Shown: one piece after another, positions 1-25,669 of the stretch
Numbering within the stretch: the stretch's first letter is position 1
How the letters are laid out: each line of letters opens with the position of its first letter
Made by a program: the position numbers and the translations under genes
Source of the DNA: a virus
Direction: 5' to 3' (one strand)
DNA length: 25,669 bases
Virus record (IMG/VR): IMGVR_UViG_3300037322_000154
Span: 1 to 25,669 of that record
Notes under the pieces: model-generated
Databases searched by the model: none
What the model was told of the DNA's origin: nothing
Seen by the model: only the letters and a program-made list of their open reading frames with translations

Positions 1-2720
1 GTCTCAAGAGCAGACTTCTGCAATGGCCCAAGAGGCTCACCGAGGAATGGACGACCAGCATCTCTAACATTTCTAATCATCTCAGAAAGAAGTCTCATTG
101 ACATGTTTCTGGTGAAGTCAGAACTGGGTAGAGCGGCAGTTGGTCCATCTACTACTACTGTATTGCCTAGGTTGTCCTGGGTAAGAACAACATAGCGGGC
201 TCCTGAAAGAGCATTGACCTTAGCCTTCCCGATAACAGTGGGGACTCTAGCGCCACCGCGACCAATTGACTTCTGAGTTGTTGCACTCCAAGGGGCAAGA
301 GAGTTTGCAAGCCCAGCATACAGAGGAGCAGCAGAAGTCTTGCGACCAACTCGGCTGGCCTGTGATGCAGTCCAAGCATTTGTTACGATAACCCAGCTTG
401 ACACGATGCTAATGTGCTTGCCAAGGTCCACCTCGAACTCATTGGGGTCTAGAACAACAACTTCGTCATCAAGCTCGCCACTAACGGTCTGCTTGAAGCC
501 AGGAGAGAACTGGCTCGCAACATCAAAGTTACCATCTAGTCCACGGCCTGCAATGAACTTGTTACCAAGAAGACCAGTGCCGTTTCGAACTACATTGCCT
601 TCCTGGTCATATAGAGGAGCATTGCCAATCCAAGAATCAACGTCCTTCTTGCGAAAGAGGTTTGTTGGCTCGCGTACGCCAATGTAGCCCAAGACAGGAG
701 TCTCTGATTCGGTCAGTGAGTGGCAAACAGCACCAAGTCTGTATGCGAAGTTGACTTCATGAAACTGGTTGCCTTCTGGATCATACTTAGAGGTGTACCA
801 ACAGTGCTTAACAACACCATCCTTGAGAAAGTTCCGGTAGAAGAACAGGAGGCTACTATTGTAGATACTGAATGAAGGGCTATTGGAGCCCTCCACTAGA
901 CCAGAAGCGTAACCACTAAAGGTGACATCTCTGTCAAAATGCAGTAGTAGTTTTGGTTCTGTTCCGACTGTGACGGTTGCCACTGCAAATCCAGAAGTTC
1001 CAGCGTCCACTGCCACAACATTGGCGACATCAGAGTTTGTGATGGTCAGCACGGCACCCAAAACTGTGACGTCCACCTTGGCAGGAGAAGCAAGGATGGC
1101 TAGGCGAGTAGCTGTTGCCACTGCTGGAGCAAGAGCCCCTTCTGCAATAGAAACCTCAATCCCAGTGTGAGCTGCAACTGCGGGGTCTACGTCTCCGATT
1201 GTCTGATACCAGACATAGTAGGCGTTAGTACCATCATCGAACCTAAAGTTCTGCGCTCCTAGATTTCCTGCTACATCTGCTACGGCAGTCACAGTAGAAA
1301 CCTCAGCATCACCAACATTTTCCCAGTTTAAGATTCTGGCGGTGCGGACAATTTCATCGGTTTCGACATCAGAGGCAAATGCAGCTCCCTTGGGCTCGTC
1401 AAAGACAATCCAAGAGGAGCCACGACCAGCAACCAGAAGGCCACTTGATAGTACAACTCGTTCAGCCTGAGTCGAAGTTTCGATAGCTACTCGATCAGCT
1501 GAGCCGAGAACAGTGGCTGAGGTTAGCTCTGTAACTAGGGCGTCTCCACCAATGCTCTCGCCAAGAAGCCCGGTATCTCCATCAATGGGAAGTGCAGTTT
1601 CTCCTACGGTCTGTCCATCAAGACCTGGGCTGTCGGCAAAGACGTCTAGAACAACCAGAGCATCAATTCTTGCAGACTCGAGTACATCCTGTGCCTCAAT
1701 AAGAGCTTCGTACTTATTCATTGCGTGAGGCTCTACCTCAGGCAGTGAAGAATCTACGCGAACACCAGAGGCATTAGTCACAAGTGGAAGGCCATTGAAG
1801 TCAGAACCTGGAGAGACCAGCAGCTCAGGGCCACTATTGGCCCCAAGGGCAAGGCGGCCAAGAAGAACCTTATCCAGTCGCTCTGCCTGATAGAGAGAGA
1901 CAAAGCGTACTGAGTGCTCACGAGCACCATCATCCTCTGAGTCATCACCCCATGCGCCATCAATGGCAGGGCTAAGAGTTACAACTCCAGTAGTTACGTT
2001 AACTCCAGCAACTCTGCTCTCAGCAAGAGCATCACCGTCTTCGTTTAGAAGCTGGACGGCAATAGGAGTCTGAGCACCAAGATAACCTAGGCGGCCAATG
2101 TTTAGGCCAACGGCAGCGACTAGAGCGATGGTTGCGCCTCCAGCAGCCAGAGTTGCCTTCTGTAGGGTTTCATCAGGAAGTACTGGGATTCGCTTTCCGA
2201 TTGAACCGAAAAGCTGAGCGTCGCCGTCTGCGTTCTCTCCAGAACCATAGACGATTACCTCACCAAGATCTAGGTCAACCAAGTCTCCGGTCTTGTCTAG
2301 GACTAAGGCTCCAGAAGAGACATTGAAGACTCTTAGGCGGTCAGTCTGTGAAGAGTAAATTGCAGAGTACTGAGAAAGAGAGTCTGAGCCCTCTACGGTG
2401 GTCTCCAGAGTTAGGCCAAATGCACCAGAGACGTCTCCGATATGCTCGATCTTTCCGGCAGTCGAGAACATTCTCACACCTACAGTGTTTGAAGTTCCTC
2501 CCTGAAATACCTCAGAAAGACCACGAGCCAATGAGCCCTGGTTGCCGAATCTAGTTAGGCCTGCGCTTTCGCTTAGTACTGCGGAAGTTACCCGCGAAGG
2601 GCCTCTAATAGCAGAGCCGACTACAGCTACTACAGCACCCTGAGGACGTACATCAGGAAACAGGTTTCCATCTACAAATTCTGTGGGGGTGTTTGGGATA
2701 TTTGGGAATCTATCAGCCAT
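1..2720 (-). CDS. Contractile tail sheath protein (3' end cut by window edge)
   Basis: Forms the contractile outer tube of the tail. The frame is open from an ATG at 2720 (MADRFPNIPNT) to base 1, giving at least 906 residues with no stop. AGGAG lies 8 bases before the start. Residues 1-90 match a sheath N-terminus: a VVAVVGSAIRGPS strand and turn, then TRFG and LARGLSEVFQGG, ending in a VGVRMF-type strand. The last visible stretch (about residues 820-906: SGARYVVLTQDN, then MRLLSEMIRNVRDAGRPFLGEPLG) resembles the conserved sheath C-terminal domain. Around residues 488-588 sits a Thr/Val/Ala-rich module starting AYYVWYQTIGDVDP, like an Ig-like or surface module seen in other phage structural proteins. 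Sheath proteins are commonly about 450-700 residues, so this one is large. The family call is firm; the insert assignment is inference. Confidence 0.88.
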   Translation of the reverse strand, partial: MADRFPNIPNTPTEFVDGNLFPDVRPQGAVVAVVGSAIRGPSRVTSAVLSESAGLTRFGNQGSLARGLSEVFQGGTSNTVGVRMFSTAGKIEHIGDVSGAFGLTLETTVEGSDSLSQYSAIYSSQTDRLRVFNVSSGALVLDKTGDLVDLDLGEVIVYGSGENADGDAQLFGSIGKRIPVLPDETLQKATLAAGGATIALVAAVGLNIGRLGYLGAQTPIAVQLLNEDGDALAESRVAGVNVTTGVVTLSPAIDGAWGDDSEDDGAREHSVRFVSLYQAERLDKVLLGRLALGANSGPELLVSPGSDFNGLPLVTNASGVRVDSSLPEVEPHAMNKYEALIEAQDVLESARIDALVVLDVFADSPGLDGQTVGETALPIDGDTGLLGESIGGDALVTELTSATVLGSADRVAIETSTQAERVVLSSGLLVAGRGSSWIVFDEPKGAAFASDVETDEIVRTARILNWENVGDAEVSTVTAVADVAGNLGAQNFRFDDGTNAYYVWYQTIGDVDPAVAAHTGIEVSIAEGALAPAVATATRLAILASPAKVDVTVLGAVLTITNSDVANVVAVDAGTSGFAVATVTVGTEPKLLLHFDRDVTFSGYASGLVEGSNSPSFSIYNSSLLFFYRNFLKDGVVKHCWYTSKYDPEGNQFHEVNFAYRLGAVCHSLTESETPVLGYIGVREPTNLFRKKDVDSWIGNAPLYDQEGNVVRNGTGLLGNKFIAGRGLDGNFDVASQFSPGFKQTVSGELDDEVVVLDPNEFEVDLGKHISIVSSWVIVTNAWTASQASRVGRKTSAAPLYAGLANSLAPWSATTQKSIGRGGARVPTVIGKAKVNALSGARYVVLTQDNLGNTVVVDGPTAALPSSDFTRNMSMRLLSEMIRNVRDAGRPFLGEPLGPLQKSALE

Positions 2721-9947: not shown

Positions 9948-11102
9948 TTATCTCATTAGGGGAGAAATCTGGATCTCACCAAGAGTAGTTCCAGAAATGT
10001 ATGTGTTATAGTTCAGGCCTTCAGTTGCTGAGCCGGGCATGCGATCAAGGGGGAGGAAGCCTGGGACGTTGGCGGGCCAGCGACTAGAGACCTTATTTAG
10101 GAAGGCCTTCACTGGCTGAGAAGCCAGACTATCACGGCGAATTACCTGGCCAACAATGGCTTCTGTCACTGCTAGAGCATTTAGGGCGCCGTTGACAGTA
10201 ATGTTATCAGCATCGGCATCATCAACAGTGGTTAGAGCCCAAGCTAGAGTCGTGCCATTTGCAGGGACGATATCAGAGTCGGCATTGTAAGTGACCTTTG
10301 ACCCGAGAGGGAAAGAGGTCATGGCAGCACCAATGGCTACAGCCTGTCCTGTGAAAAGGATTGAGCTTCTGTTGGGGACAACTGGATACATGAAGGTCTG
10401 AGCAGCTACTAGAACGGTAAAGTTCTGTAGTCCTAGCTCCCAGCTTTCCTGGCGGTTCTGAGTGGCATCTAGTGACCGACGAGCGTCAGCGCCAGTTGCG
10501 GCAGCACGGAACTCATCAGCATCACGAGACATGGCATCAGAAGAGGTGCGGAAGGCGGCAGCAGTCTGAAAGCCAATGTGGTTGCCCACGTCATGAGCTA
10601 GAGTAACAGTATTGCCATTTCCGATCACAATGGCAGTAGAGGTGTTAGCAACTGCTGCGTTGTACTGGGCTAGGTAGACTCCCTGTAGCTGAATGAATGA
10701 ATGGACAACTGGCTCACCCAAGCGAGCTAGCTGGCCACGAGAGTTTACTACAGCATTGTCTACGTCCACCTGAGTATATCGGGTTAAGGTGGATAGGGCT
10801 CCGTTGGCAGCAGAAGCGTTAATATTACCACCACCGGCAGCAACGGCTAGCATTGCATTCTGGAGGACTCTTGCCTGGATCCGAAGACCAGCAGGAACTA
10901 GAAAGCCCATCTGGTCTAGGGCAACTACCTTGCCAGTCTGAATAACCTGATACTCATCAAAGCGCTCCTGCTCCATGCCTAGTGGCAAGTAAGGGGCGAT
11001 TGTAGTATTTAGGAAAGGGCGCTCAGACTCACTAAAACGTGGGTTGGGGGGTGCTACACCTAGGCCTTTGGCGTAACGTCTTGCTGATGGGTTGTAACTC
11101 AT
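9948..11102 (-). CDS. Capsid-associated structural protein between protease-scaffold and MCP, 384 aa
   Basis: AAGGAG lies 8 bases before the ATG at 11102, so it should be well translated. Composition is Ala/Thr/Val/Asn-rich with almost no long charged helices, as in surface proteins. The N-terminus contains FDEYQVIQTGKVVALDQMGF then LVPAGLRIQAR, a pattern of head surface proteins (VV..D..G.LVPAG). The C-terminus has LDRMPGSATEGLNYNTYISG and a closing GEIQISPLMR strand. The PGSAT-G-L motif is, to my knowledge, a recurrent end of uncharacterised phage capsid decoration proteins. The stop overlaps the region of the capsid gene's ribosome site. The exact position in the head is unknown. Confidence 0.7.
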   Translation of the reverse strand: MSYNPSARRYAKGLGVAPPNPRFSESERPFLNTTIAPYLPLGMEQERFDEYQVIQTGKVVALDQMGFLVPAGLRIQARVLQNAMLAVAAGGGNINASAANGALSTLTRYTQVDVDNAVVNSRGQLARLGEPVVHSFIQLQGVYLAQYNAAVANTSTAIVIGNGNTVTLAHDVGNHIGFQTAAAFRTSSDAMSRDADEFRAAATGADARRSLDATQNRQESWELGLQNFTVLVAAQTFMYPVVPNRSSILFTGQAVAIGAAMTSFPLGSKVTYNADSDIVPANGTTLAWALTTVDDADADNITVNGALNALAVTEAIVGQVIRRDSLASQPVKAFLNKVSSRWPANVPGFLPLDRMPGSATEGLNYNTYISGTTLGEIQISPLMR

Positions 11103-11114
11103 TCCTGGGTCTCC

Positions 11115-11999
11115 TTAAAATTTGACCGAGTCAGGAATGAAGCCCTGGCTCTTTTGTTCGTTTAGGAATTGCTTTGCAGCAGACTCGCCCTGCGAGTATC
11201 TAACATCTAAGAATCTCTCATAGATGTTGGTATATTTTGAAATATCTACAGACTCATCACTGTCTCTTTCTGAAGGAGGGGTCTCTCTGGTCACCTGGAC
11301 TCCACTAGTTCCTAGACTAGGAGTGGGTAGATCAGAAATCTCCTTAATCGAGTCTTCAATGGAGCTTAGTGAGCGGTCCTGGTACTTGGCGGTTTCGGCC
11401 TTACGGTCCTGAAACTTTAGCCCTCTAGAAGCCTTGGAGTCCAACAGCTTCTCTACGAGGTTGTCTCGCAGCTTCTTGGTCATGGCCTCATTCAAAGAGA
11501 CCTGTGAACGATAGTCCTTCTGGACATCATCCATTCTCTTCTTCAGGAGGCTCTTCTCAAGCTCTAGTTCCTCAACTCTCTCAGTACTATCTCGTAGCTT
11601 CTCTGTAAGCTCAGCAACAGTCTTGCTCAGGTCCACCTCTGGGGCTTCCTCTGAAGGGCTATTGTCCTTCTCCCCTTGCTCATTAGACTCAGGAACCTCA
11701 GCTTCTACTGGGGCAGAAGAATCTTCTTCCTTAGGGGTTAGCTGAGTAACCTTGGAACCTAGTGACTCTAAAAGAGCGCCCTTAAGGTCGCAATCTTCGC
11801 AAGATTCTAGGAGAGCCTTCACTGCGTCAGCTTCGACCATATCAGTAACCTTTAGGGTCCGATCTGGGCCAACAAAGTCAGCTTCCTCTAGCTTGGCCAG
11901 GTCTTCATCAGAAGTCTTTACATAACCTTCTGGAAGGAACTCTGCCATCTTCTTTTCTAAAGCAGCAGCGTCTTTCAAAAGACGTGATAATTTATTCAT
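11115..11999 (-). CDS. Putative nested scaffold protein from an internal start, 294 aa
   Basis: Within the protease-scaffold gene, an in-frame ATG at 11999 (residue 323: MNKLSRLLKDAAALEKKMAE) follows GAGGA (12011-12007) with a 7-base gap, as good as the sites of true starts here. It lies exactly at the junction between a low-complexity linker (ETNTKGKPEESK) and the helical scaffold. Phage lambda C/Nu3 makes scaffold this way, so a free scaffold without the protease is plausible. It would share its stop and all residues with the longer protein. No transcript evidence is available, so this is inference. Confidence 0.6.
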   Translation of the reverse strand: MNKLSRLLKDAAALEKKMAEFLPEGYVKTSDEDLAKLEEADFVGPDRTLKVTDMVEADAVKALLESCEDCDLKGALLESLGSKVTQLTPKEEDSSAPVEAEVPESNEQGEKDNSPSEEAPEVDLSKTVAELTEKLRDSTERVEELELEKSLLKKRMDDVQKDYRSQVSLNEAMTKKLRDNLVEKLLDSKASRGLKFQDRKAETAKYQDRSLSSIEDSIKEISDLPTPSLGTSGVQVTRETPPSERDSDESVDISKYTNIYERFLDVRYSQGESAAKQFLNEQKSQGFIPDSVKF

Positions 12000-12965
12000 C
12001 TTTGATTCCTCGGGTTTCCCCTTTGTATTAGTTTCAATTACACTAGTTTGTTTTTCAGGATTTGTTTCATTGTAGAAATCTTTAAAACTTGTTGGGAACT
12101 TGCAAGTTTTACTATCTGAAAACCTTACAGAAGAGTCTTCCTCTAGTGCTACAAAATCAATTATATCAATGCTTGGTCTTTTTAGTACAGAACTTTTAGC
12201 GACTGAATCAGAAAAGCTTAAGTTCTCTCCAATCTCCATGATTGTGGCATTTCTAGCTGCTGGAGTGTTAACTGGTGAGACTTCGTCATAGTTGAACCCG
12301 AATGGTACTGCTAGACATTTTAGGCCATCGTAATATTGGCCTCTTTCGTGCTCACACTCATCTTTCCGCCAGTCAGTAATCATGTCCTCCCTGGCACACT
12401 GTGAGCAGTAAGCTCCTTTTGGAGTGAATGCAGTAGAGACAGTTAAATAGCGCTTGTCGATTATCTTCTGGACTGCATCGGCATCAGAAACATCCCACAA
12501 TCCATCAATGCGTCCTACGCCCTCAAAATTCTCAATAGCAGCATCTGCTTCTTGGAATATGGCTACTGTTTTTAGTCTAGCTAAAGTTGTTGAGCGAGGG
12601 TTGTGAAAAACAGCCATTGCTTGTGCCAGTTTTGGGAACTTGCTAATAGCGTCTACAGACGTGTCTACATATCTTGCGTCTTTTACTCTTCCGATTGGGT
12701 CTACCAGATCTTTGTGATGGACTTGAATGGGCCGCTCATAAGGAATGGTCCAGGATCTAGTACCGTTGTACATCTCATCTGGAAGATAGATCGCTGCATT
12801 CCCAGTTACGGCTCCCGCGAATGTCATCTTTACAATGGCTGCGATTTTGGAAACCTTTTTATCTGATGTCGTAGAAGACCTTTCTAGGGGGATATTATGT
12901 TCTCCTCCTACAATGAAGTCCTCTAGTGGGATATTTTGCTTCCATCCACTTGTGGTTTTACTCAT
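11115..12965 (-). CDS. Capsid maturation protease fused to scaffold, 616 aa
   Basis: Two parts are visible. Residues about 40-245 are protease-like: GAVTGNAAIYLPDEM, YERPIQVHHKDLVDPIGRV (candidate catalytic His83/84), RYLTVSTAF (candidate Ser177), then DEVSPVNTPAA, matching prohead proteases related to the HK97/herpes assemblin group. Between them is a likely zinc site, C187-x2-C190 and C204-x-H206 in ECEHERG, known in some phage proteases. Residues 323-616 are scaffold-like: acidic, Glu/Lys/Ser-rich, with a coiled-coil (VAELTEKLRDSTERVEELEL) and a C-terminal SKYTNIYERFLDVRYSQG segment. GGAG lies 5 bases before ATG 12965. It removes scaffold and capsid arms after assembly; the catalytic residues are inference. 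Confidence 0.8.
   Translation of the reverse strand: MSKTTSGWKQNIPLEDFIVGGEHNIPLERSSTTSDKKVSKIAAIVKMTFAGAVTGNAAIYLPDEMYNGTRSWTIPYERPIQVHHKDLVDPIGRVKDARYVDTSVDAISKFPKLAQAMAVFHNPRSTTLARLKTVAIFQEADAAIENFEGVGRIDGLWDVSDADAVQKIIDKRYLTVSTAFTPKGAYCSQCAREDMITDWRKDECEHERGQYYDGLKCLAVPFGFNYDEVSPVNTPAARNATIMEIGENLSFSDSVAKSSVLKRPSIDIIDFVALEEDSSVRFSDSKTCKFPTSFKDFYNETNPEKQTSVIETNTKGKPEESKMNKLSRLLKDAAALEKKMAEFLPEGYVKTSDEDLAKLEEADFVGPDRTLKVTDMVEADAVKALLESCEDCDLKGALLESLGSKVTQLTPKEEDSSAPVEAEVPESNEQGEKDNSPSEEAPEVDLSKTVAELTEKLRDSTERVEELELEKSLLKKRMDDVQKDYRSQVSLNEAMTKKLRDNLVEKLLDSKASRGLKFQDRKAETAKYQDRSLSSIEDSIKEISDLPTPSLGTSGVQVTRETPPSERDSDESVDISKYTNIYERFLDVRYSQGESAAKQFLNEQKSQGFIPDSVKF
12007..12011 (-). promoter_or_regulatory. 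Internal Shine-Dalgarno site for nested scaffold
   Basis: GAGGA on the minus strand, 7 bases before the in-frame ATG at 11999 and inside the coding region of the protease-scaffold fusion. It codes for part of the linker between the two domains, and it decides the call for the nested scaffold product. Confidence 0.6.
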
Positions 12966-12967
12966 CT

Positions 12968-15058
12968 TTACTCCGTAAATGGATTTATTTCACATCTGCA
13001 ATTGGAATGGAAAGGGGGCAACTGGTCATCTTCAATAGATAAAAGGTCAATAACCAAACCATTGAATTTTGAATAGTGCTGACCATTAGGGTCAGAGCTG
13101 ATTACTCCCTTCTTTATCCCAATTGCCTTCATTACTCTTACTCTGGAAGTGTTGTATGCAAAAGCAGATACCGAATTCATGATAGAGGATATTCTGTATT
13201 CCATTACGTCTAAGGTATCTCTTATTGGTCTTCCCAGTGAGATTTTAGACATTGATCTTGCAGATCCTTCTGATATCAATCTTCTTACGTCTTCTCTTGC
13301 TTTGGCCTTTGCTAGCTTCTCTCCATTCTTTATTGCATCAGAAGTTGCTTTGTTGAATTCAAAGCCTCTTAGAGCTTCTATAGAGGCATCTTCAACTACT
13401 GAGTTAATGTGGTTTAGTATCTTTGATTCTACTGAAAGGAATAGCTGTCTCACAAAGGATAGCTCTATGTTGTTTGGGTTATATCTGCTTAGATCATGGG
13501 AGAGGGCTTGGAAAGCTTCTCTTGCTGTAACTCTATCCTTCTCTTGTGAGGACCGGGCTTTTGTGGGGCCTAAGAGAGTGCCATGCTGGTTACTTGGCTG
13601 TTGGCGCGCGCGAGCAGATCCTCCTGAGCCTATTGGGGATGAAGCATCTGGCGCTGCTGCTCTGATGCTCGCAGACTTCTCTGCGGCCCTTGCGGTAATG
13701 AGGGCGGGGTTCTCTTTGATATCCTCATTCTGATCATCTCTTAGGGCCTGATATCCAGATGCATTGCGAGCTTCAGTTAAGGTCATCATTCCGGCTTCAT
13801 AAAGTAGGGAGAAGTGATTCTGCACAGTAATCTGAGTAGTTGTATCCACCTCTTTGAAGGAGAACTTGACATTGTGTTCCTCTACTAAAGGGTTGAAGCC
13901 GAATTTGCCTTCCAGTAGAAGCTCTCTAATCATGTAGAAATTAAGTCTGTCAGCAACTATGTTCTGGTAGAACTTTACATTACCAATGCCTAGCCTGGAG
14001 AGAGAATCGGAGGTTGAGCGGTTTGCCATTTCTCCATCACCAAAGTCTAGGGATGACATTCCTGTGCCAGTGACTACCCTCTTCTTGAAGTGGTCTAGGT
14101 ATGGCTCGACTCTTAATGCTTGGCTCTCAGAGCCTAGTACTTCTATGTCGTGTCTATAGGGGACAACTACCATTCCACTTGATGGCATTCTGTCCACTCG
14201 GAACTTCACATAGTCAATCTCAGTTGAGCCATCTTCGTACTTCTGGACTGGCTCCTTTTCTGTGCCAACCTTGTACACAAATAGGGGATGTATGTGCTGA
14301 TAAACTAAGTTTTCTACACTCTCTTCAATGCGACGTAGGGCTTCAATATCCTCTAGTGCTGGATGCCAAGGAGGAGTGGGTGCAAGGAAGTGAGGCCGCT
14401 TATTGATCGTGATATAGATCACGTCCTCAGCCTTAAAGATCTTCTCTCTGCCATCTGGCATAGAATGCTTGAAGTGGGTAATTCTATTACCCCCACCCAC
14501 CTTTACCTTCATTGTGTTGATAGAGATCACAAAGTATGCAGCAACAGGCTCTAGGTATTTCCCGTCGCCTACCTTCCGGGTGTTTCCACCTGAGTTTTTA
14601 GCATTTCTGGATTTCACTATACAAACAGCATGGTACTTAAAGAGTTCAGACATTATCTCTTCTATAAAGTTGCTAAAGGTCTGATCCTGGGCAACCTCTA
14701 GTTGCTGCAACCGTTCTTTAACGTACTTTATAGTGTCTACGTTTTCGCCAACGAAACTAAACCCTTCTTTGATAGCAAGAGCTTGCTTCTTCAGTAGAGC
14801 TTGGAAGACATAGGTTTCCGTGTCCTCTGCTGCACTTATATCCAAGAGAGGGTATTCAAAGTCTACGAATCCGGCATCATCCTTCCCCCTGGTAGATGAA
14901 GGCCTTACATAGGTCTTGGAAGTTCTCTTCTCAGAGCCTAGCTGGGACTGGATTAACACCACATGGCTCTTTTTCTTATCTTCTGAGTCTCTAACCTTGT
15001 TTTCAAGGAAGGATTCAGAAAAGGCGATGTCCTCTATGCTTATGTCCTTATTGGTCAT
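12968..15058 (-). CDS. Portal protein with C-terminal Mu gpF-like (MuF) domain, 696 aa
   Basis: Residues 1-480 are portal-like: VFQALLKKQALAIKEGFSF, EVAQDQTFSNFIEEIMSEL, EPVAAYFVISINTMKVKV, EDIEALRRIEESVENLV, VVVPYRHDIEVLG and VEPYLDHFKKRVVTGTGM, then a MIRELLLEG and YEAGMMTLTEARNASGY stretch. This is the dodecameric ring at the head vertex through which DNA enters. After a Ser/Gly/Arg linker (ASSPIGSGGSARARQQPS), the C-terminus reads AYNTSRVRVMKAIGIKKG, LVIDLLSIEDDQL, then PPFHSNCRCEINP: the hallmark of the MuF/SPP1 gp7-like minor head protein domain, with H684, C687 and C689. Fusion of portal and MuF is less common than separate genes. ATGA overlap with the upstream gene. Confidence 0.85.
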   Translation of the reverse strand: MTNKDISIEDIAFSESFLENKVRDSEDKKKSHVVLIQSQLGSEKRTSKTYVRPSSTRGKDDAGFVDFEYPLLDISAAEDTETYVFQALLKKQALAIKEGFSFVGENVDTIKYVKERLQQLEVAQDQTFSNFIEEIMSELFKYHAVCIVKSRNAKNSGGNTRKVGDGKYLEPVAAYFVISINTMKVKVGGGNRITHFKHSMPDGREKIFKAEDVIYITINKRPHFLAPTPPWHPALEDIEALRRIEESVENLVYQHIHPLFVYKVGTEKEPVQKYEDGSTEIDYVKFRVDRMPSSGMVVVPYRHDIEVLGSESQALRVEPYLDHFKKRVVTGTGMSSLDFGDGEMANRSTSDSLSRLGIGNVKFYQNIVADRLNFYMIRELLLEGKFGFNPLVEEHNVKFSFKEVDTTTQITVQNHFSLLYEAGMMTLTEARNASGYQALRDDQNEDIKENPALITARAAEKSASIRAAAPDASSPIGSGGSARARQQPSNQHGTLLGPTKARSSQEKDRVTAREAFQALSHDLSRYNPNNIELSFVRQLFLSVESKILNHINSVVEDASIEALRGFEFNKATSDAIKNGEKLAKAKAREDVRRLISEGSARSMSKISLGRPIRDTLDVMEYRISSIMNSVSAFAYNTSRVRVMKAIGIKKGVISSDPNGQHYSKFNGLVIDLLSIEDDQLPPFHSNCRCEINPFTE

Positions 15059-23044: not shown

Positions 23045-25669
23045 TTAACTCCTATGATGTCCTATATGATTTTCGTTGTCGAACATGCTCTTAACATAAG
23101 ACCTTGCATTGTTATTAGCATTCATTAGCTTTGCCTTAACAGCAAAGCTTCTTGCAGGCCTCTTCACTACCTTGTCAATGACATAGCCTGAGCCGAAGTC
23201 TCCTATGTCAGCCCTACGATTAGCATTGGCCCAACCATGGTTTAATCCTTCGTGAATGTTGAAGTCATCCTTACCACCTGCCGCCATCATTCCTGATAGA
23301 GAAGCATCTGGATTCCTCATCCTATGTAGTACTGCTGCTGCTCTAAAGTTCTGATAGATGTCTTGTGGGTCTGAGAGAGTATTGTGCGTCATCCTTCTCT
23401 TGGTGCCCATGGCATTCTGTGCTGCTTGCCATTCGCCCATCCCCCACATCCCTTCCCCTGATTCTTGGGCTTGGGCTTGGGCTTTAGTAAACTCTCCTGT
23501 ACTATATATTCTGTCACTAGAAGGCCCATAAGGTAGTGCAGCTGCTGCTCCTGCTCTTACTAGTTCTAGGTTTACGTTAGTACCATCTTCAGCGACTATT
23601 AGGCCGGCAGTACGTCCATAAGTTTGAGAACTATCAGGGGAGAAGAGAACTTTCATGTCTCCCTGTGCTGCCATTAGCTCTTCTAGTCTACTCGTGGCTT
23701 CTTGGCCATATGGTTGATCTTGTAGAGGGTTATAAGCGAATCCTTCGTGAGTTGTTTCTGGCGCGTCTATGCCTGCCAGACGAAGACTCATCTCTCCTCC
23801 GCCCTGGAGCATTAGCTTAACAGTGTCTGCGTCCTCTACTGCATATGAGCGAATACCTATTTGGGCTACTTGCCTGTCATCACTCTCTCTCTTAGAGATA
23901 CCATCATTAGCTCCTGTGCCTCTAGCTATTGATGACTGGTTCATTATTCCAAGAGTGCGCTTTATGTCATTTGCAGCACCTTGCCATGGAGAAGCAAACG
24001 CAGTATTCTTGGGTCTGGTGGTTCCGGCAATACCTGAGTGAGGGAATCCCTCAATAGTATTGTAAGCATCATCAAAGCCATGAATAATCTTATACGGCTC
24101 ATTCATTCCTGGGATTTCACCACGAGTGGTTGTTAATCCGGGGAAATCCGATTCTCTTTTAGCTATTCTCTGAGAGGCTCTCCCTGAGTCAGAATTATCA
24201 AGATATCTTTGTCTACCCGCGAGGATATCTTCTGCTGCACCCTTTGTGAAGATCAGATTCTCTGAGCCATCTCCGCCGACTCTTATAACCGCTTGGTTTA
24301 GGGAAGAGTCTGTTGTTGGGAAAAAGTGTTCGAGTGTTGAGGTTGTTTCAACATCGAAAAATGCCTGTCGGCCCTCCATTGCTCCATAAATTTTATCTGT
24401 TGGGATACCACCTGTGACAAGCAGGTCTATGTCTTTAGATTCCTTTGCCCACTCTGGCCTAATCTTCCCTACTAGTCTGTTTCTTGCTACACCTCCCTTG
24501 ATGTGGAGCTGACCACCCATCGCCTCTATGTCTTTGGCTAAGCCGAAGACACTCTCCATAACTCCACGCTTAGCAGGATCGGAAAATCCGAGAGCCTCTG
24601 CATTGCTGAAGGCCAAAGAAGCACCATGCTCTTCTTTGACCAACTTGGTGGGGCGGCCCATGTGATTAGGGTTATAATCGTGAGCAACTACGTCATCAAC
24701 TACAAAGTATTTATTCCTATTAACCGTAGACAGGTCGACTGTTGGAGTACTTTTGAAATAATTTCTGAATGCTTCAGTAGTTGATCTTGGTTGTATCTCC
24801 TCTAGTGCTTTTTGATAATTGTTGGATGAGCTGATGAAATTGTCCATCGAACTCCAACTACTATCTCCACCCCCTTCAAGTCTTGAAAGGCTCTTTTCGT
24901 ATGAACTCTTTGTCGCTGAAAATGAAGCATTTTTTTGTCGTATTATGCTAGCGTCTGTATGTATTTGAGCGCTTAATGGGGCTTGCTTCCCCATTCTACT
25001 CGGAGCGTTTCCGCTGATATTCCTAACACCAAATAGCTCTAGAGATTGGTTTCTAGTTATTTCATGCCCACTATCTCCGTAGGCGGGAGAAAATACTGCG
25101 TCTGAATTTTTCGTGTTTTTAATGAAAAAGGTGTTTTTCCCATAACCCCCAGAAGTCGCTGGTGCTGCCCTCAGATCTGCACGACCACTCTTCAGCATGC
25201 TCGCATAGACTCCTACTCCATCTGCATGCTGAACATTTGTACTTCCAGGCAAGAGTCTCTTTGTTGCAAGAATGGCCTCCAGACCTTGATCACTAGTTGA
25301 GTGCGCGCGATACCCAACTAGATCTGGGGCGTCAGGACTAAAGGCGTCGTATTTGCCTTGGGCTATTTTTTTTTCGTAGGAGCTTACTATTCCTTCTATT
25401 CTTCGATAGCCCAAATCCTCAACATCTCTATTTTTCCCTTCGAGAGTCGTTTTTACTCTATGCTCTATATGTGCTTTGTCTACTGGTTCAAACTTAGGCT
25501 TATTATGCTCTAACTTAAAATAAGCTTTAGCCTGAGCTCTTACATCTCTTACTCCCATTTCTTTCAGTTTTTCAGCTGAGAAATCTCCGCGCTCGACAGA
25601 GGTTAGAAGCTTCTTGTTCTCTTTACTTGTTCTTCGGGAGTCACCTAGTCGCCGTATGGATTCTGGTTC
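23045..25669 (-). CDS. Large multidomain virion/effector protein: ART-like, NTase-like and SNase domains (5' end cut)
   Basis: The frame is open from 23045 to the window edge. The first Met (25558) has 37 in-frame codons before it, no stop and no ribosome site, so the true start lies outside; 874 residues are visible. Numbering from that Met: residues 79-180 may be ADP-ribosyltransferase-like (YRAHS at 83-87, a GLEAILATKRLLPG helix, GVGVY ending at Y118, then SLELFGV), a weak H-Y-E fit. Residues 349-384 read GGQLHIKGGVARNRLVG then KDIDLLVTGG, the head of a poly(A)-polymerase/CCA-type nucleotidyltransferase. Residues 570-705 are a complete staphylococcal-nuclease domain: DADT (576-579), RLAGIDAPE (593-601) and YGR (647-649), with the R-D-E-R catalytic set. 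Inferred: packaged enzyme released into the host. Confidence 0.82.
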   Translation of the reverse strand, partial: EPESIRRLGDSRRTSKENKKLLTSVERGDFSAEKLKEMGVRDVRAQAKAYFKLEHNKPKFEPVDKAHIEHRVKTTLEGKNRDVEDLGYRRIEGIVSSYEKKIAQGKYDAFSPDAPDLVGYRAHSTSDQGLEAILATKRLLPGSTNVQHADGVGVYASMLKSGRADLRAAPATSGGYGKNTFFIKNTKNSDAVFSPAYGDSGHEITRNQSLELFGVRNISGNAPSRMGKQAPLSAQIHTDASIIRQKNASFSATKSSYEKSLSRLEGGGDSSWSSMDNFISSSNNYQKALEEIQPRSTTEAFRNYFKSTPTVDLSTVNRNKYFVVDDVVAHDYNPNHMGRPTKLVKEEHGASLAFSNAEALGFSDPAKRGVMESVFGLAKDIEAMGGQLHIKGGVARNRLVGKIRPEWAKESKDIDLLVTGGIPTDKIYGAMEGRQAFFDVETTSTLEHFFPTTDSSLNQAVIRVGGDGSENLIFTKGAAEDILAGRQRYLDNSDSGRASQRIAKRESDFPGLTTTRGEIPGMNEPYKIIHGFDDAYNTIEGFPHSGIAGTTRPKNTAFASPWQGAANDIKRTLGIMNQSSIARGTGANDGISKRESDDRQVAQIGIRSYAVEDADTVKLMLQGGGEMSLRLAGIDAPETTHEGFAYNPLQDQPYGQEATSRLEELMAAQGDMKVLFSPDSSQTYGRTAGLIVAEDGTNVNLELVRAGAAAALPYGPSSDRIYSTGEFTKAQAQAQESGEGMWGMGEWQAAQNAMGTKRRMTHNTLSDPQDIYQNFRAAAVLHRMRNPDASLSGMMAAGGKDDFNIHEGLNHGWANANRRADIGDFGSGYVIDKVVKRPARSFAVKAKLMNANNNARSYVKSMFDNENHIGHHRS

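Follow-up and report, generated by a model that had tools for sequence, protein, structure and literature searches.

Protease and scaffold genes in previously described viruses

In phage lambda, the scaffold Nu3 is in frame with the protease C and is started internally. According to Shaw & Murialdo (1980, cited in PMC8508860), the lambda scaffold gene overlaps its protease gene in the 3' part of the latter, and for the UL26/UL26.5 genes of HSV, the scaffold from the fusion accounts for about 10% of the total (PMC12474303). A gene of the Bacillus thuringiensis phage 0305phi8-36 is labeled "protease with nested scaffold gene" in a figure legend (PMC2147016), and gpO of phage P2 is a single chain with the protease N-terminal and the scaffold C-terminal (PMC7552001). 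Nested arrangements of protease and scaffold are a kind already known from lambda C/Nu3, UL26/UL26.5, and 0305phi8-36.

Here we analyzed a 25,669-base virus record (IMGVR_UViG_3300037322_000154, positions 1 to 25,669), referred to below as the window. A preliminary description of this sequence had proposed that one of its genes encodes a protease-scaffold fusion with a nested, internally started scaffold, and had compared it with lambda C/Nu3. The comparison is apt. The shared feature is a scaffold gene that overlaps the 3' part of a protease gene, but lambda C is an S49/ClpP-like protease and differs in class from the protease of the window, which is predicted to have the T4 gp21/herpesvirus assemblin fold. 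Herpesvirus UL26/UL26.5 and 0305phi8-36 are closer parallels. UL26.5 differs in belonging to a eukaryotic virus and in being expressed from its own transcript, whereas the window has a predicted bacterial internal ribosome-binding site. What the herpesvirus genes have in common with the window is an assemblin-fold protease fused to a scaffold, with a nested shorter gene that has the same C-terminus (PMC12474303). In 0305phi8-36, the nested protease/scaffold gene lies beside a putative head decoration gene in the same order as in the window, a likeness drawn from the figure-legend label (PMC2147016). The protease and scaffold chain of P2 gpO is also alike, but the description in PMC7552001 includes no nested scaffold start.

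The head-gene locus

Based on the open reading frame list and profile matches, the head genes of the window are co-directional on the minus strand and comprise a terminase gene, the portal gene, the fusion gene, a 384-aa gene, and the capsid gene. The features immediately around the fusion are as follows:

12968..15058, minus strand: portal protein (PHROG 9232, E 6.4e-37)
11115..12965, minus strand: protease-linker-scaffold fusion, full length, 616 aa and 68.8 kDa (ATG start and open frame; same architecture in relatives)
9948..11102, minus strand: putative head decoration protein, gene between fusion and capsid (same position as "h.d." in 0305phi8-36, PMC2147016)
8639..9934, minus strand: major capsid protein (PHROG 3922, E 4.6e-19; Pfam PF25209)

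The C-terminal residues 585-695 of the portal gene product (12968-15058, minus strand) weakly match minor head and head morphogenesis families (phrog_115, E 1.8e-4; phrog_4728, E 4.7e-4), which suggests a portal-MuF-like fusion. Elsewhere in the window, an 837-aa protein (23045-25558, minus strand) contains a domain resembling staphylococcal nuclease (residues 592-705; PF00565, E 4.3e-16), and a 906-aa frame (3-2720, minus strand) that lies downstream of the head genes and runs off the contig end may, judging from its position, encode a tail sheath protein.

Predicted protease and scaffold halves of the fusion

The fusion gene can be divided into the following parts:

12192..12866, minus strand: predicted prohead protease domain, residues about 34-258 (AlphaFold model and fold matches)
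12000..12209, minus strand: disordered linker, residues 253-322, carrying the predicted internal ribosome-binding site (pLDDT under 50)
12007..12011, minus strand: internal Shine-Dalgarno (SD) sequence GAGGA (from the sequence; an SD is found here in relatives too, mostly stronger)
11997..11999, minus strand: internal start ATG, codon 323 (in-frame; aligns with ATG/TTG/GTG of relatives)
11115..11999, minus strand: nested scaffold frame, 294 aa, 32.9 kDa predicted (internal ATG and codon-usage change)
11427..11636, minus strand: long helix, residues 444-513, coiled-coil-like scaffold core (AlphaFold, pLDDT mostly 80-90)
11148..11243, minus strand: C-terminal helix, residues 575-606 (AlphaFold, low-to-moderate confidence)

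The gene had been described as having 616 residues and a prohead-protease-like N-terminus, and our analysis confirmed the open frame and recovered fold matches to T4 gp21 and the assemblins. The full-length AlphaFold model, built with 19 aligned relatives, had a pLDDT mostly above 80 across the protease (residues about 40-250), and the protease domain modeled alone reached a mean pLDDT of 95.2. When this protease model was compared with known structures using VIA-align, the top 27 rows were all capsid proteases, among them the varicella-zoster protease (Z 10.1, rmsd 3.0, 122 aligned), T4 gp21 (Z 10.0, rmsd 3.0, 123 aligned), and other herpesvirus assemblins (herpesvirus matches at Z 7-10), while the first unrelated row had a Z of 4.6. 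Foldseek gave only a weak match against the PDB (E 0.06), and the top match among predicted viral proteins in BFVD was a prohead protease (E 4e-19). The N-terminal part of the fusion is a predicted capsid maturation protease with the prohead/assemblin fold, as judged from these models. In an HMM alignment, S177 was present in 55/55 proteins and H84 in 54/55, and these two residues likely form the predicted catalytic pair.

A CxxC...CxH motif at residues 187-206 (12347-12410, minus strand) is invariant in 55/55 aligned protease domains and is possibly zinc-binding. The HMM alignment was used because a regular expression with fixed spacing for this motif lost many relatives.

Searches that started from the window protein itself were less informative than those that started from alignments. 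No confident match was found in Pfam or PHROGs with the fusion protein, and in PDB sequences an HMM recovered coiled-coil matches only. The single window protein recovered no relatives from viral contigs, whereas alignment queries did find them; a profile search of genome contigs with the alignment A3 also returned none, and another alignment, A2, contained no region conserved well enough to be used as a query.

The C-terminal half is largely helical in the AlphaFold model, in agreement with the coiled-coil scaffold proposed earlier, and its first helix spans residues 321-343. That this half is a scaffold is suggested by its position, its helix content, and precedent in other viruses. By the same analogy, the helix at residues 575-606 is a possible capsid-binding end of the scaffold.

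A candidate internal start at the linker-scaffold junction

The internal site is as it had been described, with GAGGA at 12011-12007 separated by 7 nt from the in-frame ATG at 11999. Its placement at the junction between linker and scaffold also agrees with the model, in which the pLDDT is below 50 over residues 253-323 and helix 321-343 begins the scaffold. The nested product would be 32.9 kDa, close to the earlier estimate of ~32 kDa.

Judged alone, the internal site of the window is unremarkable. GAGGA forms only four contiguous pairs with the anti-SD (duplex -5.9 kcal/mol), its strength is about the median of gene starts in the window, and the ATG at 11999 ranks 17th of the 154 internal in-frame ATGs of the window's genes, 16 of which score better. 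A protein-preserving synonymous shuffle of the window's fusion gene gave no significance for the site (p=0.64), and local mRNA structure there is only mildly reduced (62nd percentile). The case that the site exceeds chance comes only from the relatives and the codon-usage step, both presented below.

These properties would fit a gene from which only the fusion is translated, with any free scaffold arising by self-cleavage in the linker and the GAGGA-ATG being incidental. SD-like motifs arise readily from Glu-Glu codons, P2 gpO is an example of a single protease and scaffold chain that cuts itself (PMC7552001), and the window site is no better than its synonymous shuffles. We nevertheless give this explanation little chance, as it would have to accommodate an SD and start at the junction in nearly all independently gathered genes under a protein-fixed shuffle control, a start codon kept in the matching alignment column by the window and its clade, and a codon-usage step at the internal start.

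Within the fusion gene, a 7-pair stem-loop (11968-11985, minus strand) begins ~12 nt 3' of the internal ATG; similar elements occur at chance level.

Relatives of the fusion gene

Homologs of the fusion were found in 26 IMG/VR loci, to which a second scan added further loci, and in three named phages. The latter encode a homologous protease that lies, as in the window, between the portal and capsid genes. Their annotation names a hypothetical protein or a prohead protease and lists no second product:

Acinetobacter phage ME3 gene 20, between portal and capsid: junction site AAGGA..ATG224
Bacillus phage KLEB27-3 gp014, between portal and capsid: junction site GAGGAGG..GTG256
Moorella phage MTATph1 CDS0006, between portal and capsid: weak candidate GTG307 only, no codon step

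The capsid, terminase, and protease of ME3 match those of the window, and the ME3 annotation cites homologs in 0305phi8-36; in terms of homology, the window is connected to 0305phi8-36 only by way of ME3. We also gathered loci independently of the fusion by means of the capsid gene, which has 317 relatives in total; of the 80 capsid-linked loci that were examined, 77 contain the fusion. PHROG 16951, a family of unknown function, matches 14/19 members of the fusion family and could be annotated as prohead protease-scaffold. Four loci (L005, L007, L008, and L014) and their relatives have extra scaffold inserts, with fusions reaching 937 aa, and these inserts share the motif FCGPxRSFPVPDCAHVTAA or FCGPAGGAPKGSYPVNT.

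In a phylogenetic tree, the window groups with L057, L058, L061, and L062 (local support 97). Loss of the internal SD or start in close relatives would speak against internal initiation, but all four retain both: in a MAFFT alignment, the column of M323 holds ATG360, ATG331, TTG307, and GTG356, and every one of these codons has an SD. The aligned codon in the five clade members is ATG, ATG, ATG, TTG, and GTG, a start codon throughout. This column is kept while the surrounding linker is only 12-28% identical to that of the window and has long gaps, compared to 43-53% identity in the protease, which matches the expectation in the preliminary description that the site would be conserved as the linker varied.

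Conservation of the internal start

To assess the wider family, we compared the best internal SD and start of each gene with synonymous shuffles. With the junction defined as the 90 codons after the protease, 18 of the 22 non-redundant genes had their best site there (8.5 expected; z -6.6), a test that is partly post hoc because the pattern came from listing starts in the first relatives. All 7 of the additional distinct genes that the second scan supplied showed the same. As an independent sample, taken after the pattern had been noticed in the 22 others, we used 54 non-redundant capsid-linked genes, a junction of 110 codons, and a shuffle that keeps the protein fixed; here the best site lay in the junction in 51/54 (20 expected; shuffle z -11.8). 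As these genes share ancestry, counts over relatives are not fully independent. L079, L092, and L124 are without a good junction site, and a clear junction start was not found in gp17 of the distantly related Rhodococcus phage Finch. The typical site is AAGGAGG followed by ATG.

Outside the junction, strong SD and start combinations in the 54 relatives are rarer than in synonymous shuffles, both in the protease part (z +2.8) and in the later scaffold part (z +3.4), as if spurious internal starts were avoided there.

An SD-like sequence at a domain boundary could instead act as a pause site, slowing ribosomes so that the protease folds first, with no initiation taking place. The location of the motif, after the protease domain and at the end of the disordered linker, would suit such a role. 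Pausing would not call for a start codon, but in 66/83 genes an in-frame start lies at initiation spacing downstream of the top SD-like motif in the junction. The same holds for 11/162 (7%) of the top motifs outside the junction, and chance would give about 11%. The window is among the 17/83 genes that fail this test, as a stronger SD-like motif in its junction has the wrong spacing. At the aligned column, M, L, and V are exchanged only as ATG, TTG, and GTG, and pausing would leave the codon-usage step unexplained. Taking these points together, we see scarcely any chance that the motif acts by pausing.

Of the junction start codons in 77 genes, 58 are ATG, 10 are TTG, and 9 are GTG, and the codon has changed at least 15 times along the tree. 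By itself this count is no test because most sites were picked as start codons; the real tests are the motif-then-start count and the alignment of the window with its clade. All eight sequences of one closer clade share the SD codons GAG GAG GTT, while only 21% of the degenerate codons that encode invariant amino acids are equally invariant. In 70/78 genes, the mRNA at the junction has less structure than most other parts of the gene, which may be partly due to the base composition of the linker.

A codon-usage step at the internal start

We scored codons by their preference in the capsid gene versus that in low-expression genes, using the capsid gene and the 9948..11102 gene as the high-expression reference. 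In the window's fusion gene, the change is best placed at codon 328, five codons past the predicted start at 323 (p 0.0015), and lysine codons AAA/AAG shift from 16/9 before the change to 4/26 after it, compared to 1/22 in the capsid gene. The step remains when amino acids are held fixed (z 4.47). GC3 alone places the change point at codon 429, away from the start, so only the measure of capsid versus low-expression codons marks it.

Across 19 genes, the step has a Stouffer z of 8.6, with a mean z of -0.46 in 33 control genes, and 41 further loci gave a Stouffer z of 6.6 with controls averaging -0.45. Change points in these 41 loci scatter widely. Change point and start codon agree closely in ME3 (229/224), L016 (279/282), L025 (273/274), and L030 (240/237). 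We looked for the step without finding it in L001, L013, L017, and MTATph1, although L013 and L017 do have the site. Because starts were picked by SD and not by codon usage, the two signals are separate. Together, they are consistent with the scaffold half being translated more than the protease half.

Both signals are also compatible with a scaffold that has its own transcript, made from a promoter within the protease part as for UL26.5, in which case the SD would serve the shorter message. A promoter-like match does end at 12069 (minus strand), ~70 nt upstream of the ATG. Such matches occur at chance (3 versus 3.1 expected) in a scan that covers promoters of the sigma-70 type, and the tightly packed, co-directional head genes suggest a single long message. 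We consider a separate transcript to be quite improbable.

Proposed expression and assembly

Given the computed domains and protease fold, where the internal start lies and how widely it is conserved, and the codon-usage step, we believe it highly probable that one frame gives rise to two proteins, the fusion and an internally initiated free scaffold, which would co-assemble so that the protease is carried into the prohead. The earlier reading of a nested, internally started scaffold is supported. Initiation at 12965 would yield the 68.8 kDa prohead protease-linker-scaffold fusion, while GAGGA in the unstructured linker would aid internal initiation at the ATG at 11999, and it is very likely, judging from sequence, that the predicted free scaffold of 294 aa (32.9 kDa), with a C-terminus common to the fusion, arises in this way. 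Free scaffold would be present in excess of the fusion. The two would co-assemble within the capsid shell, and the protease would enter the prohead because the fusion co-assembles with the free scaffold; it would then cleave the scaffold, itself, and other head proteins, leading to head maturation.

Implications

These results add a predicted, unannotated second product to a large phage family in which the head-assembly genes are mostly "hypothetical". They also indicate that a nested protease/scaffold arrangement has been kept over a broad and deeply diverged group of phages with a protease fold of the herpesvirus type. The breadth of conservation, the codon step, and the placement within the herpesvirus-type fold are new here as far as our search of the open literature extends, and earlier reports are possible. 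An internal SD and start together with a codon step in one gene provide a simple way to test computationally for nested products in other genes. A more speculative idea, which we regard as rather unlikely, is that control through the internal start is ancient and lineage-wide. The ratio of protease to scaffold would then be set by SD strength and by whether ATG, GTG, or TTG is used, possibly matched to head size, with the codon usage of one gene split between a low- and a high-expression half. If this is true, SD and codon steps could expose unannotated nested proteins in other phages.
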